Assembly (NCBI RefSeq): GCF_001040705.1
Contig: NZ_CVQP01000001.1
Location: forward strand, 612,324-676,323
Reading direction: 5' to 3'
DNA from: Rhodococcus sp. RD6.2
GTDB lineage: Bacteria > Actinomycetota > Actinomycetes > Mycobacteriales > Mycobacteriaceae
DNA: 64,000 nt
Each line of letters starts with the position of its first letter. Within the stretch, counting starts at the first letter, position 1. Both the position numbers and the translations under genes were made by a program. Below are positions 6,569 to 8,440 of the stretch, piece by piece. A model generated the notes under the pieces. That model searched no databases and had not been told where the DNA came from. It worked only from the letters and a program-made list of their open reading frames with translations.

Positions 6569-6952
6569 TCAGCGGTTGTCGACCTGATACGACTCGATCC
6601 GCCGGATCAACCCTTCCCGGAAGTGGAAGTAGTCGCTGAAGATGCCGTGCAGTTCGCCGCCGTCGGTGAACCGAGCCTCCACCGTCCCGAGCAGGACGAC
6701 GACATCGTTCTCCTCGACCATGCGGATCACCGTCAACGTCGGTTTCCCGGTGAACGTGTCGTTCTCGATCTCCTTGTGGAAGGCCGCCTTGCCGGTGATC
6801 GAGAAGTCGCCCGGCATCTCCCAGATCACGTCCTCGGTGAGCAGGGAGAGGATCGCGTCGTGGTCGCCCGTGCGAAAACCCTCGACGTACGCGGCGACGG
6901 CGCGCTTGTTCGGGGACAGTGACGGATCGGATTCGGACATCTCCGGCTGCAT
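6569..6952 (-). CDS. SnoaL/NTF2-like (limonene-epoxide-hydrolase type) protein
   Basis: 127-residue alpha+beta barrel protein. The pattern of an N-terminal helix, YVEGFRTGDHDAILSLLTEDVIWEMPG and a C-terminal sheet with LIRRIESYQ is typical of SnoaL/ketosteroid-isomerase folds. The ATG at 6952 has AAGGAGA immediately upstream and is preferred to longer readings. It lies 55 bp downstream of the ECF41 sigma gene on the same strand and is probably co-transcribed. The sigma factor itself ends in a SnoaL-like domain, so two related folds sit side by side. Substrate unknown. Confidence 0.75.
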   Translation of the reverse strand: MQPEMSESDPSLSPNKRAVAAYVEGFRTGDHDAILSLLTEDVIWEMPGDFSITGKAAFHKEIENDTFTGKPTLTVIRMVEENDVVVLLGTVEARFTDGGELHGIFSDYFHFREGLIRRIESYQVDNR

Positions 6953-7007: not shown

Positions 7008-7907
7008 TCACACCCCTGATGAGGCCAGATTGATGTCGAGTTCCGCGAGAGACGCCGGATCGGCGAGCACGACCAGCTCGACGATCCGGTCTCCCTCGAC
7101 CACGAACGTGTACACCGCCCGGACGTGCCCGTCGGGCGCCCACGCCGCCGCGGGACGCCCGTCGACAGTGACGACCTGCGCGGCACGAGCGCGCCCGCTG
7201 AAAGCCTCCGCGACGCCGCGGGCTCCGGCGACCATCGCCGACAGGGCAGGCGCACCGTGGGCCACCCCGGCCGCCGACGCGGACACCGCCACCGAGTCCG
7301 CGCGCAGCACGACATCCGGATCGAGCAGTTCGAGCAGGTCCTCGAAACGACCCTCCCGGGACGCGGCGAGAAACGCCTCGACCACCCGCCTGCGCCGCGG
7401 CGCGTCGGGCTCGGCGACGCCACCGCCCTGCACGCGGCGCCTGGCTCGGCTCGCCAACTGCCGCGCGGCGGCGGGGGAGCGGTCCACGATCGGTGCGATC
7501 TCGTCGAACGGCACCGCGAACAGGTCGTGCAGCACGAAGGTGAGCCGCTCTGCGGGCGTGAGGGTGTCGAGCACGACGAGCAACGCAACACCGATCGAAT
7601 CGGCAAGGACCGCTTCGGTTTCCGGTCCGATTGCCGCATCGGCCGGATCGGGGCGGCCGGGCTCGTCCAGCGTCACCTCGCGGCGCGACCCCCTCGAGCG
7701 CAGCATGTCCAGGCACACCCGGCTGAGGGCGGTCGTGAGCCAGCCCGCCAGGTTCAGGATCTCGTCGCTGTCGACCCGAGCCAGGCGTAACCACGTCTCC
7801 TGCACCGCATCGTCGGCCTCCGCGGTCGACCCGAGCATGCGGAAGCCCACAGCCCGCAGATGGTCGCGGTGCTCCTCGAACTGCCTGGCCAGAATCTCTT
7901 CACTCAT
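7008..7907 (-). CDS. ECF41-type RNA polymerase sigma factor
   Basis: 299 residues. Sigma region 2 (about 1-75) carries HLRAVGFRMLGS and DDAVQETWLRL. Region 4 (about 110-170) carries LTPAERLTFVLHDLF and the DNA-binding helix. A C-terminal SnoaL-like extension of about 120 residues follows. That extension and the divergent AhpD-like gene are the hallmarks of group ECF41 (SigJ type), which lacks an anti-sigma factor and is controlled by its own C-terminal domain. The DGGG motif usual in the extension is not visible, and the terminal NPDKL motif is replaced by ADPASL. The start is ATG 7907; GTG 7916 in frame is possible. Opposing ECF41-type promoters lie between it and its partner. Confidence 0.9.
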   Translation of the reverse strand: MSEEILARQFEEHRDHLRAVGFRMLGSTAEADDAVQETWLRLARVDSDEILNLAGWLTTALSRVCLDMLRSRGSRREVTLDEPGRPDPADAAIGPETEAVLADSIGVALLVVLDTLTPAERLTFVLHDLFAVPFDEIAPIVDRSPAAARQLASRARRRVQGGGVAEPDAPRRRRVVEAFLAASREGRFEDLLELLDPDVVLRADSVAVSASAAGVAHGAPALSAMVAGARGVAEAFSGRARAAQVVTVDGRPAAAWAPDGHVRAVYTFVVEGDRIVELVVLADPASLAELDINLASSGV

Positions 7908-7910
7908 CGC

Positions 7911-7937
7911 TGTCACATTCTCTCGTAGCGGTCCGTC
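7911..7937 (+). promoter_or_regulatory. ECF41-type promoter driving the AhpD-like gene
   Basis: TGTCAC (7911-7916, continuing ACA to 7917), a 17-nt spacer, then CGTC (7934-7937). This matches the published ECF41 consensus of a TGTCACA -35 and a CGTC -10. It points right, about 48 nt before ATG 7985. Confidence 0.75.
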
Positions 7938-7945
7938 AGAGGGGT

Positions 7946-7972
7946 GACGAACATGCGAGAACCGATGTGACA
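7946..7972 (-). promoter_or_regulatory. ECF41-type promoter driving the sigma gene itself
   Basis: On the minus strand TGTCAC (7972-7967) is followed by a 17-nt spacer and CGTC (7949-7946). Motif and spacer length are the same as in the opposing copy at 7911-7937. The two promoters fire towards each other with only 8 bp between their -10 boxes. This one would autoregulate the sigma gene. Confidence 0.75.
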
Positions 7973-7984
7973 GGAGAGTTCGAG

Positions 7985-8440
7985 ATGCAGGCACGAATGA
8001 CCAATCCCGCGATGGTTCTGCCCGGCGCCGTGGCGGCGTTGCAGGCAGTCGGCCGCACGACGGAGAACACCGGACTGCCGACCCGCACCGTGCACCTCGT
8101 GCACCTGCGCGCCAGCCAGATCAACGGCTGCGGCGTCTGCGTCGACATGCACCCGAAGCTGGCGATGAAGGACGGCGAAACCGTCGAGCGCCTGCTCGCG
8201 GTCGCCGCGTGGCGCGAATCCCCGTACTTCACGGACGCCGAACGGGCAGCGCTGGCACTGACCGAGTCGGTGACCCGGCTCGCCGACCGACCCGACCCCG
8301 TCCCGGACGACGTCTGGGACGACGCTGCCGACCACTACGACGAGCAGCAGCTCGCTGCGCTGATCATGCAGATCTCGCTGATCAATGTGTGGAACCGGCT
8401 CAACGCCACCGTCAAGCAGGTCGCCGGCGCAGGCTGGTGA
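7985..8440 (+). CDS. Carboxymuconolactone decarboxylase / AhpD-like protein, ECF41 partner
   Basis: 151-residue all-helical protein of the CMD/AhpD family. It shows a CxxC redox pair with following His (C49, C52, H56 in the context NGCGVCVDMH), as in AhpD peroxidatic partners. ATG 7985 is preferred because AGGAG lies about 8 nt upstream; GTG 7967 in frame overlaps the sigma promoter motif and is less likely. A carboxymuconolactone decarboxylase, oxidoreductase or epimerase gene is the typical conserved neighbour and sole target of ECF41 sigma factors. The cellular substrate is unknown for the family. A paralogue lies at 52638-53075. Confidence 0.88.
   Translation: MQARMTNPAMVLPGAVAALQAVGRTTENTGLPTRTVHLVHLRASQINGCGVCVDMHPKLAMKDGETVERLLAVAAWRESPYFTDAERAALALTESVTRLADRPDPVPDDVWDDAADHYDEQQLAALIMQISLINVWNRLNATVKQVAGAGW

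Follow-up and report, generated by a model that had tools for sequence, protein, structure and literature searches.

Organization of the sigma factor locus in Rhodococcus sp. RD6.2

The window analysed here is a stretch of 64,000 nucleotides from the Rhodococcus sp. RD6.2 genome (contig NZ_CVQP01000001.1, positions 612,324 to 676,323 of the forward strand), and positions are given in window coordinates unless stated otherwise. An ECF sigma factor gene and a gene of the CMD/AhpD family are transcribed away from each other across an intergenic space of 77 bp, and a third gene lies behind the sigma gene:

6569..6952, minus strand: protein of 127 aa with a SnoaL_2 domain, encoded behind the sigma gene in the same orientation (open reading frame and profile)
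7008..7907, minus strand: ECF sigma factor gene, 299 aa, with a SnoaL-like C-terminal extension (open reading frame and translation, ATG at 7907)
7985..8440, plus strand: partner gene of the CMD/AhpD family (151 aa), whose product contains CGVC, a CxxC motif (open reading frame and domain profiles)

In a domain profile search the sigma factor matched Sigma70_r2 and r4_2 above cut-off, and SnoaL_2 at 176-277 with 21.7 bits against a cut-off of 27. A sequence search of the PDB gave SigJ (5xe7) as the top match, and the protein is a relative of SigJ/ECF41 that lacks the WLPEP linker motif. The locus resembles the ECF41/COE systems (Wecke et al. 2012, PMC3426412) in the TGTCACA/CGTC consensus, the CxxC-containing CMD partner and the lack of an obvious anti-sigma gene nearby. 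The SnoaL_2 gene at 6569-6952 is possibly part of the same transcript as the sigma gene. Its 127-aa product gave a weak match to the C-terminal part (214-269) of the sigma-70 family model PRK08241 and looks like the sensor domain of a sigma factor in free-standing form.

The intergenic space contains two exact TGTCAC-N17-CGTC promoters that point at each other, with -10 boxes separated by the 8 bp AGAGGGGT; this part of an earlier note on the same DNA was confirmed on both strands. The parts of the element are as follows:

7911..7937, plus strand: partner-directed promoter, exact motif (-35 TGTCAC 7911-7916, 17-bp spacer, -10 CGTC 7934-7937)
7946..7972, minus strand: sigma-directed promoter, exact motif (-35 TGTCAC 7972-7967, 17-bp spacer, -10 CGTC 7949-7946)
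7938..7945, no strand: 8-bp centre separating the -10 boxes, defined by the sequence and the recurring 8/9-bp gap, predicted to be untranscribed from both starts
7946..7984, plus strand: leader predicted for the partner mRNA, 39 nt from start G 7946 (9 nt past CGTC, the S. meliloti offset)
7908..7937, minus strand: leader predicted for the sigma mRNA, 30 nt from start G 7937 (9 nt past CGTC, the S. meliloti offset)

Both arms read TGTCACA and CGTC, N17 counted from TGTCAC being N16 counted from TGTCACA. The single motif is weak evidence by itself: two copies are found in the window against 0.54 expected, at least two occurred in 10 of 100 shuffles, and the 5.57-Mb genome holds 19 exact matches, two of them the window's. 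With a relaxed motif and facing pairs accepted whenever 0-30 bp separated their -10 boxes, the window's pair was the only one in the genome. Mirror symmetry holds at 34 of the 62 positions of the element (7911-7972), a value reached by 204 of 63,938 window stretches, and outside the boxes the symmetry is not unusual. The centre, CGTCA-N6-TGACG, forms an inverted repeat whose half-sites are spaced by 11 bp.

A preferred gap at sigma loci selected without regard to promoters

A set of 110 loci, the window's included, was picked by similarity of the sigma protein alone, with promoters ignored; 30 came from 61 related genomes, and the other 80 were the top-ranking named loci on GTDB contigs. Codon usage assigned the upstream neighbour as divergent at 67 loci, co-directional at 24 and unclear at 18, with one locus (L110) having no upstream DNA, and some of these calls may be wrong. 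The 67 divergent loci carry a sigma-directed site in 50 cases, an away-directed site in 58 and both in 44. The gap between the facing -10 boxes was 8 bp (26 loci) or 9 bp (7 loci) in 33 of these 44. Permuting arm positions between loci with leader lengths kept produced a gap of 8 or 9 bp at a mean of 2.82 of the 44 loci and at no more than 9 in 2000 trials.

The same gap was seen at 6 of 13 co-directional and 3 of 11 unclear loci with both sites. These may represent wrongly called neighbours or dyads that have lost the second gene; the six co-directional loci show that an obvious gene for the away arm is not always present. At L049, L050, L100 and L121 the arms face each other across 8 bp though the nearest upstream gene apparently reads toward the sigma gene, and the away arm there would yield antisense or non-coding RNA. 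Five loci (L063, L097, L113, L091 and L085) show as best hits, four of them in the scored set, arms placed back to back upstream of the sigma gene, with -10 boxes 64 bp and -35 boxes about 10 bp apart.

The dyad is absent from 33 of the 67 loci with a divergent neighbour. Where it is present, the divergent partners, named by eye, are varied and include CMD, NmrA/SDR-like, old-yellow-enzyme-like, glyoxalase-like and DoxX-like proteins. Among the four closest orthologues of the window sigma (67-71% identity), L002 and L005 have both arms, and L003 and L004 have the partner-directed arm only, so that autoregulation is dispensable. The earlier note had made its proposal depend on conservation in related genomes: the facing architecture is indeed kept there, but not universally, as the latter two orthologues illustrate.

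Relation to classical ECF41 sigma factors

The label ECF41, used by the earlier note, fits the locus in its promoter consensus and adjacent CMD (COE) gene, but not in the sigma protein or the promoter geometry. ECF41 proteins are characterized by a WLPEP motif in the sigma2-sigma4 linker (PMC3426412) and carry an NPDKL-type motif near the C-terminus (PMC7730460). WLPEP is absent from the window sigma and was found in one of the 110 motif-blind loci (L027), whose sigma retrieved mainly relatives of the window's kind in a search, not classical ECF41; an NPDKL-like sequence, by the pattern used, was found in none of the 110, the window included. Against NCBIfam, the window sigma scored 230.9 bits with the SigJ model NF007214 (cut-off 271) and 207 with the SigX4 model TIGR02957 (cut-off 323.25). 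Membership of ECF41 in the strict sense of Wecke et al. (2012) is ruled out by the two missing motifs. ECF56 is ruled out by the promoter: that of SigG1 contains CCG at -35 and CCCTCC at -10 (PMC7730460), features absent from the window element with its TGTCAC/CGTC.

For contrast, 148 genomes of the class were searched with SigX4, and the 30 loci fetched for the top matches, all above cut-off, were compared; 27 of them were usable (L192, L193 and L209 were left out, their contig flank being cut and the frame lost). WLPEP is present in 25 of the 27. By the same method 11 were divergent, 13 co-directional and 3 unclear, and a facing pair with a gap of 8 or 9 bp occurred in none of the 27, including the seven divergent ones with both sites. 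In a quick tree with midpoint root, a branch with 100% SH-aLRT separates the 27 classical sigmas from all others; the dyads are spread through the other, non-classical side, where the window sigma falls. Five of the seven divergent classical loci with both sites (L186, L189, L190, L208 and L213) have back-to-back arms with -10 boxes 88-89 bp apart, a spacing that descent may explain, these sigmas being close relatives.

Rhodococcus sp. RD6.2 itself encodes two sigma factors above the SigX4 cut-off and a third with WLPEP, each near a one-way TGTCAC site (by eye), and cross-talk between these and the window sigma, which share a consensus, is possible. At one of these loci (L241, 1549-1575 and 2204-2947 in its own coordinates) the WLPEP sigma gene is convergent to a CMD-like gene that is preceded by a one-way TGTCAC-N17-CGTC. 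Of four single-motif matches looked at outside the window, one lies inside an aminotransferase-like open reading frame, one precedes a CMD-like gene beside a WLPEP sigma gene (gene names by eye), and two had no clear assignment.

Genome scans blind to genes recover the same gap beside sigma genes

Whole genomes were scanned for facing pairs with gene content ignored. The family scan (401 genomes, strict pattern, gap 2-20) returned 17 places in 17 genomes, 16 at 8 bp and one at 9 bp. The phylum scan (296 genomes of Actinomycetota, relaxed pattern, gap 0-30) returned 42 places in 38 genomes: five at 8 bp, the window's own included, nine at 9 bp and four at 11 bp, with 24 places distributed over the other 28 gap values, or about 0.86 each (hand count). 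The same relaxed pattern applied to the order of Rhizobium rhizogenes (219 genomes) gave 14 places in 14 genomes, six scattered and eight at 8 bp, one of which (in the genome of L111) was known beforehand. Eight further genomes, chosen for holding a dyad, gave ten places, every one at 8 bp; one genome accounts for three of these, and the ten are not independent. Controls with the reversed pattern hit no genome in the family, phylum and eight-genome scans and 2 of 219 in the order scan.

From these four scans 68 loci were fetched. A sigma gene adjoins all 42 elements with a gap of 8, 9 or 11 bp versus two of the 26 whose gap differs. Since L044 and L140 both represent the window element, the 42 correspond to 41 places, a few near-copies among them. 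Back-to-back pairs, sought in the phylum genomes with a pattern one letter stricter, occurred at 26 places in 24 of 296 genomes and at most three times at any gap (hand count), with the reversed pattern hitting 3 of 296. Chance is ruled out as the source of the facing gap by the permutation, the gap histograms and the near-empty reversed-pattern controls, and a general habit of divergent promoters by the missing gap peak among back-to-back pairs.

The gap of 8 or 9 bp is strongly preferred and not obligatory, 11 bp being found in one family and 4 and 16 bp at two sigma loci. The latter are L153 (1501-1556, gap 4) and L147 (1501-1568, gap 16), both with sigma-linked facing arms. The 11-bp gap is confined to family f32 (L157 and places in G624, G665 and G696) and comes with a near-constant centre, which reads ACTACTACAAT in three of the four and differs by a single base in the other; this gives the impression of selection on the centre itself.

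Could the two arms be independent ECF promoters that came to face each other merely through the short intergenic space, the gap being frozen history with no coupling between them? Descent is visible in the 41 dyads compared, with a mean pairwise identity of 47% in the spacers and 88% in the boxes, and part of the gap constancy may be common ancestry, the loci being related by descent; just 77 bp are available in the window, and the locus is still kept in those two of the four nearest orthologues that have one arm fewer. Such a history is nevertheless rather unlikely. Leader lengths were preserved in the permutation and accounted for fewer than 3 of the 33 loci observed, and the facing pairs peak sharply in the very genomes where back-to-back pairs do not. 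Moreover, the dyad label (L019 and L029 added by hand, below the score limit) changes at least 24 times on the quick tree, yet the same gap returns across Actinomycetota, Pseudomonadota, Chloroflexota and one Myxococcota MAG.

Concordance of the two -35 boxes with one another and with the sigma factor

The 43 motif-blind dyads with gaps of 8-11 bp comprise 37 GTCAC/GTCAC pairs, three GTTAC/GTTAC pairs, three pairs with a divergent away arm and no GTCAC/GTTAC pair. A scan for GTTAC arms in the 219 order genomes returned 17 pure pairs, 11 at 8 bp, five at 9 bp and one at 26 bp, the last sharing an arm with another pair. Mixed GTTAC/GTCAC pairs numbered 16, none at 8 bp and four at 9 bp, three of these four being one near-identical sequence from a single genus. 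The reversed pattern hit 3 of 219 genomes. A sigma gene was present at 15 of 15 fetched pure GTTAC loci versus 0 of 15 fetched mixed loci (of 16).

The -35 class is matched in the stretch before SRAR, which we take, from the structure of sigma region 4, to be the recognition helix. It carries K-M in 14 of the 15 fetched GTTAC loci, the exception being L246 with K-Q; GTCAC dyads have R-Q, K-Q, R-K or K-K at the same positions. The change to GTTAC on both arms, together with the altered helix, marks one subclade. Some dyads are asymmetric, with GGTC toward the sigma gene and TGTC away from it.

Predicted overlap of start sites and -10 boxes at a gap of 8 bp

The mapped start of the S. meliloti ECF41 promoter lies 9 nt past CGTC (PMC3616915), and the starts in B. 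licheniformis and R. sphaeroides are G (PMC3426412). The 9-nt offset comes from classical ECF41 systems, from which we infer the starts in the present clade. Applied to the window, it places each predicted +1 G opposite the final C of the facing arm's -10 box, so that box and start overlap reciprocally between the two strands. Each transcript would cross the boxes of the opposing promoter, as the earlier note had stated; its suggestion of 5'-overlapping RNAs does not hold with this offset, by which the two RNAs begin 9 bp apart and diverge.

Because the complement of CGTCA is TGACG, the -10 box of either arm doubles, at a gap of 8 bp, as the start sequence (TG+1AC) of its opponent on the other strand. 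In keeping with the offset, lone sigma-directed promoters (38 loci) have A after CGTC in 92% of cases and T, G and A at positions 8, 9 and 10 in 55, 61 and 55%; in dyads, T, G, A and C occupy positions 8-11 past CGTC in 81, 79, 79 and 77%. GAC at the position for a gap of 8 or 9 bp is found in 41 of 43 dyads versus 11 of 38 lone promoters, a difference that is partly by construction, the dyads having been chosen by both arms. A lone promoter thus already has half of the opposing box, and a second arm would be easy to gain at this distance. In the 9-bp class the start would need a one-base shift.

A probable bidirectional promoter that may cap sigma factor self-activation

The sequences directly present two arms, a preferred gap, its recurrence, its link to a sigma clade, and -35 boxes in agreement with each other and with the recognition helix. 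The reading we favour is that of a bidirectional promoter in an ECF form, preserved in a clade that neighbours ECF41. For the window in particular we consider it likely that 7911-7972 is a mirror-symmetric bidirectional promoter of a SnoaL-type ECF sigma factor, with the gap set by the overlap of -10 box and start site, mutually exclusive openings and capped self-activation. The sigma factor very probably drives both its partner and itself, as the earlier note had proposed. Sigma-RNA polymerase would bind the element either way round, in one orientation to transcribe the CMD partner gene and in the other the sigma gene. Both open complexes would melt nearly identical base pairs (about 7935-7948) and so exclude each other, and the transcripts, beginning at G7946 on the plus and G7937 on the minus strand, would run apart. 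Active sigma would raise both outputs, and each firing toward one gene would cost the other; with initiations divided between target and regulator, self-activation would be tied to target transcription and capped by it. That the two promoters could not be occupied simultaneously, another point of the earlier note, is supported by the geometry, given usual polymerase footprints and bubbles.

The earlier note had gone further and seen a built-in switch, in which occlusion of one promoter by firing from the opposite one is strong enough to leave cells either partner-on or sigma-on. Although the exclusive occupancy just described and the passage of each transcript across the other arm are what such a switch would use, we regard it as improbable: both arms need the same sigma, with no opposing input to hold either state, and the predicted transcripts do not overlap, so that there would be no antisense pairing at their 5' ends. 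With one activator common to both arms, competition would split or damp the output, not toggle it. It is still less probable that the partner-directed arm alone is real and the sigma-directed arm a chance or decaying match. The former is indeed present in all four nearest orthologues and the latter missing in two, and in the divergent ECF41 loci of Wecke et al., where the motif often precedes both genes, PCOE (41 of 55) slightly exceeds PECF (36 of 55) (Table 4, PMC3426412); but the sigma-directed arm in this genome is an exact match at the recurring gap, the 67 divergent loci have almost as many sigma-directed as away-directed sites, and the two arms agree in -35 class. Least credible is an operator for a dimeric regulator in the CGTCA-N6-TGACG centre, with the likeness to facing -10 boxes secondary: its half-sites are one helical turn (11 bp) apart and GAC also occurs at the corresponding place in some lone promoters, but far less often than in dyads, a number of dyads are asymmetric, and an operator would not explain why the outer -35 boxes agree mutually and with the recognition helix.

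The bidirectional promoter with competing openings, which we prefer, bears on how such sigma factors are held in check. No obvious anti-sigma gene has been found near ECF41-type sigmas (PMC3426412), which raises the question of how their self-activation is restrained. If the proposal is true, regulator synthesis competing directly with target synthesis would be a very simple restraint. We put forward more tentatively, and with less than even confidence, the wider idea that a sigma clade adjoining classical ECF41 is wired in several phyla by a two-way promoter with one shared bubble, and that DNA symmetry, not an anti-sigma factor, sets both the feedback gain and the output ratio.

Relation to known facing and bidirectional promoters

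The promoters of argE/argCBH in E. coli likewise face each other between divergent genes; there, unlike at the window element, a repressor acts between the facing promoters. We know of no fixed gap set by -10/start-site overlap at argE/argCBH. A further comparison is offered by the sigma70 bidirectional promoters (Middlemiss et al. 2023, PMC10268837), in which divergent starts lie 7-25 bp apart (9 bp predicted here), the -10 box and start overlap reciprocally, and polymerase binds in either orientation; these too are commonest between divergent genes on the chromosome. Their starts are usually 18 bp apart, their symmetry resides in one near-symmetric TATAAT -10, and the second RNA is often non-coding, whereas the window element has two full -35/-10 pairs, is served by a dedicated ECF sigma and recurs in distant bacteria. 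It also suggests an ECF counterpart of the sigma70 -10/start overlap that has been kept in distantly related bacteria.

Among ECF systems, RpoE9-SMb20029 of S. meliloti shares the ECF41-type promoter, the CMD target and the start 9 nt past CGTC, but its CMD gene lies upstream of the sigma gene, is likely co-transcribed with it and has a single mapped start (PMC6180224, PMC3616915). The earlier note held its built-in switch to be one not usually described for ECF41 loci. The promoter pair had already been published, and a fixed facing geometry was not found in the text consulted of that paper (PMC3426412). Titles and abstract openings in a library of open literature likewise yielded no description of facing ECF41 promoters.

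With both -35 boxes matching the recognition helix, the dyads form a natural series for studying -35 specificity. One genome (G033) holds a GTCAC/GTCAC pair (L138) and a GTTAC/GTTAC pair (L255) of facing promoters, each beside its own sigma gene, which are possibly two orthogonal copies of the system.
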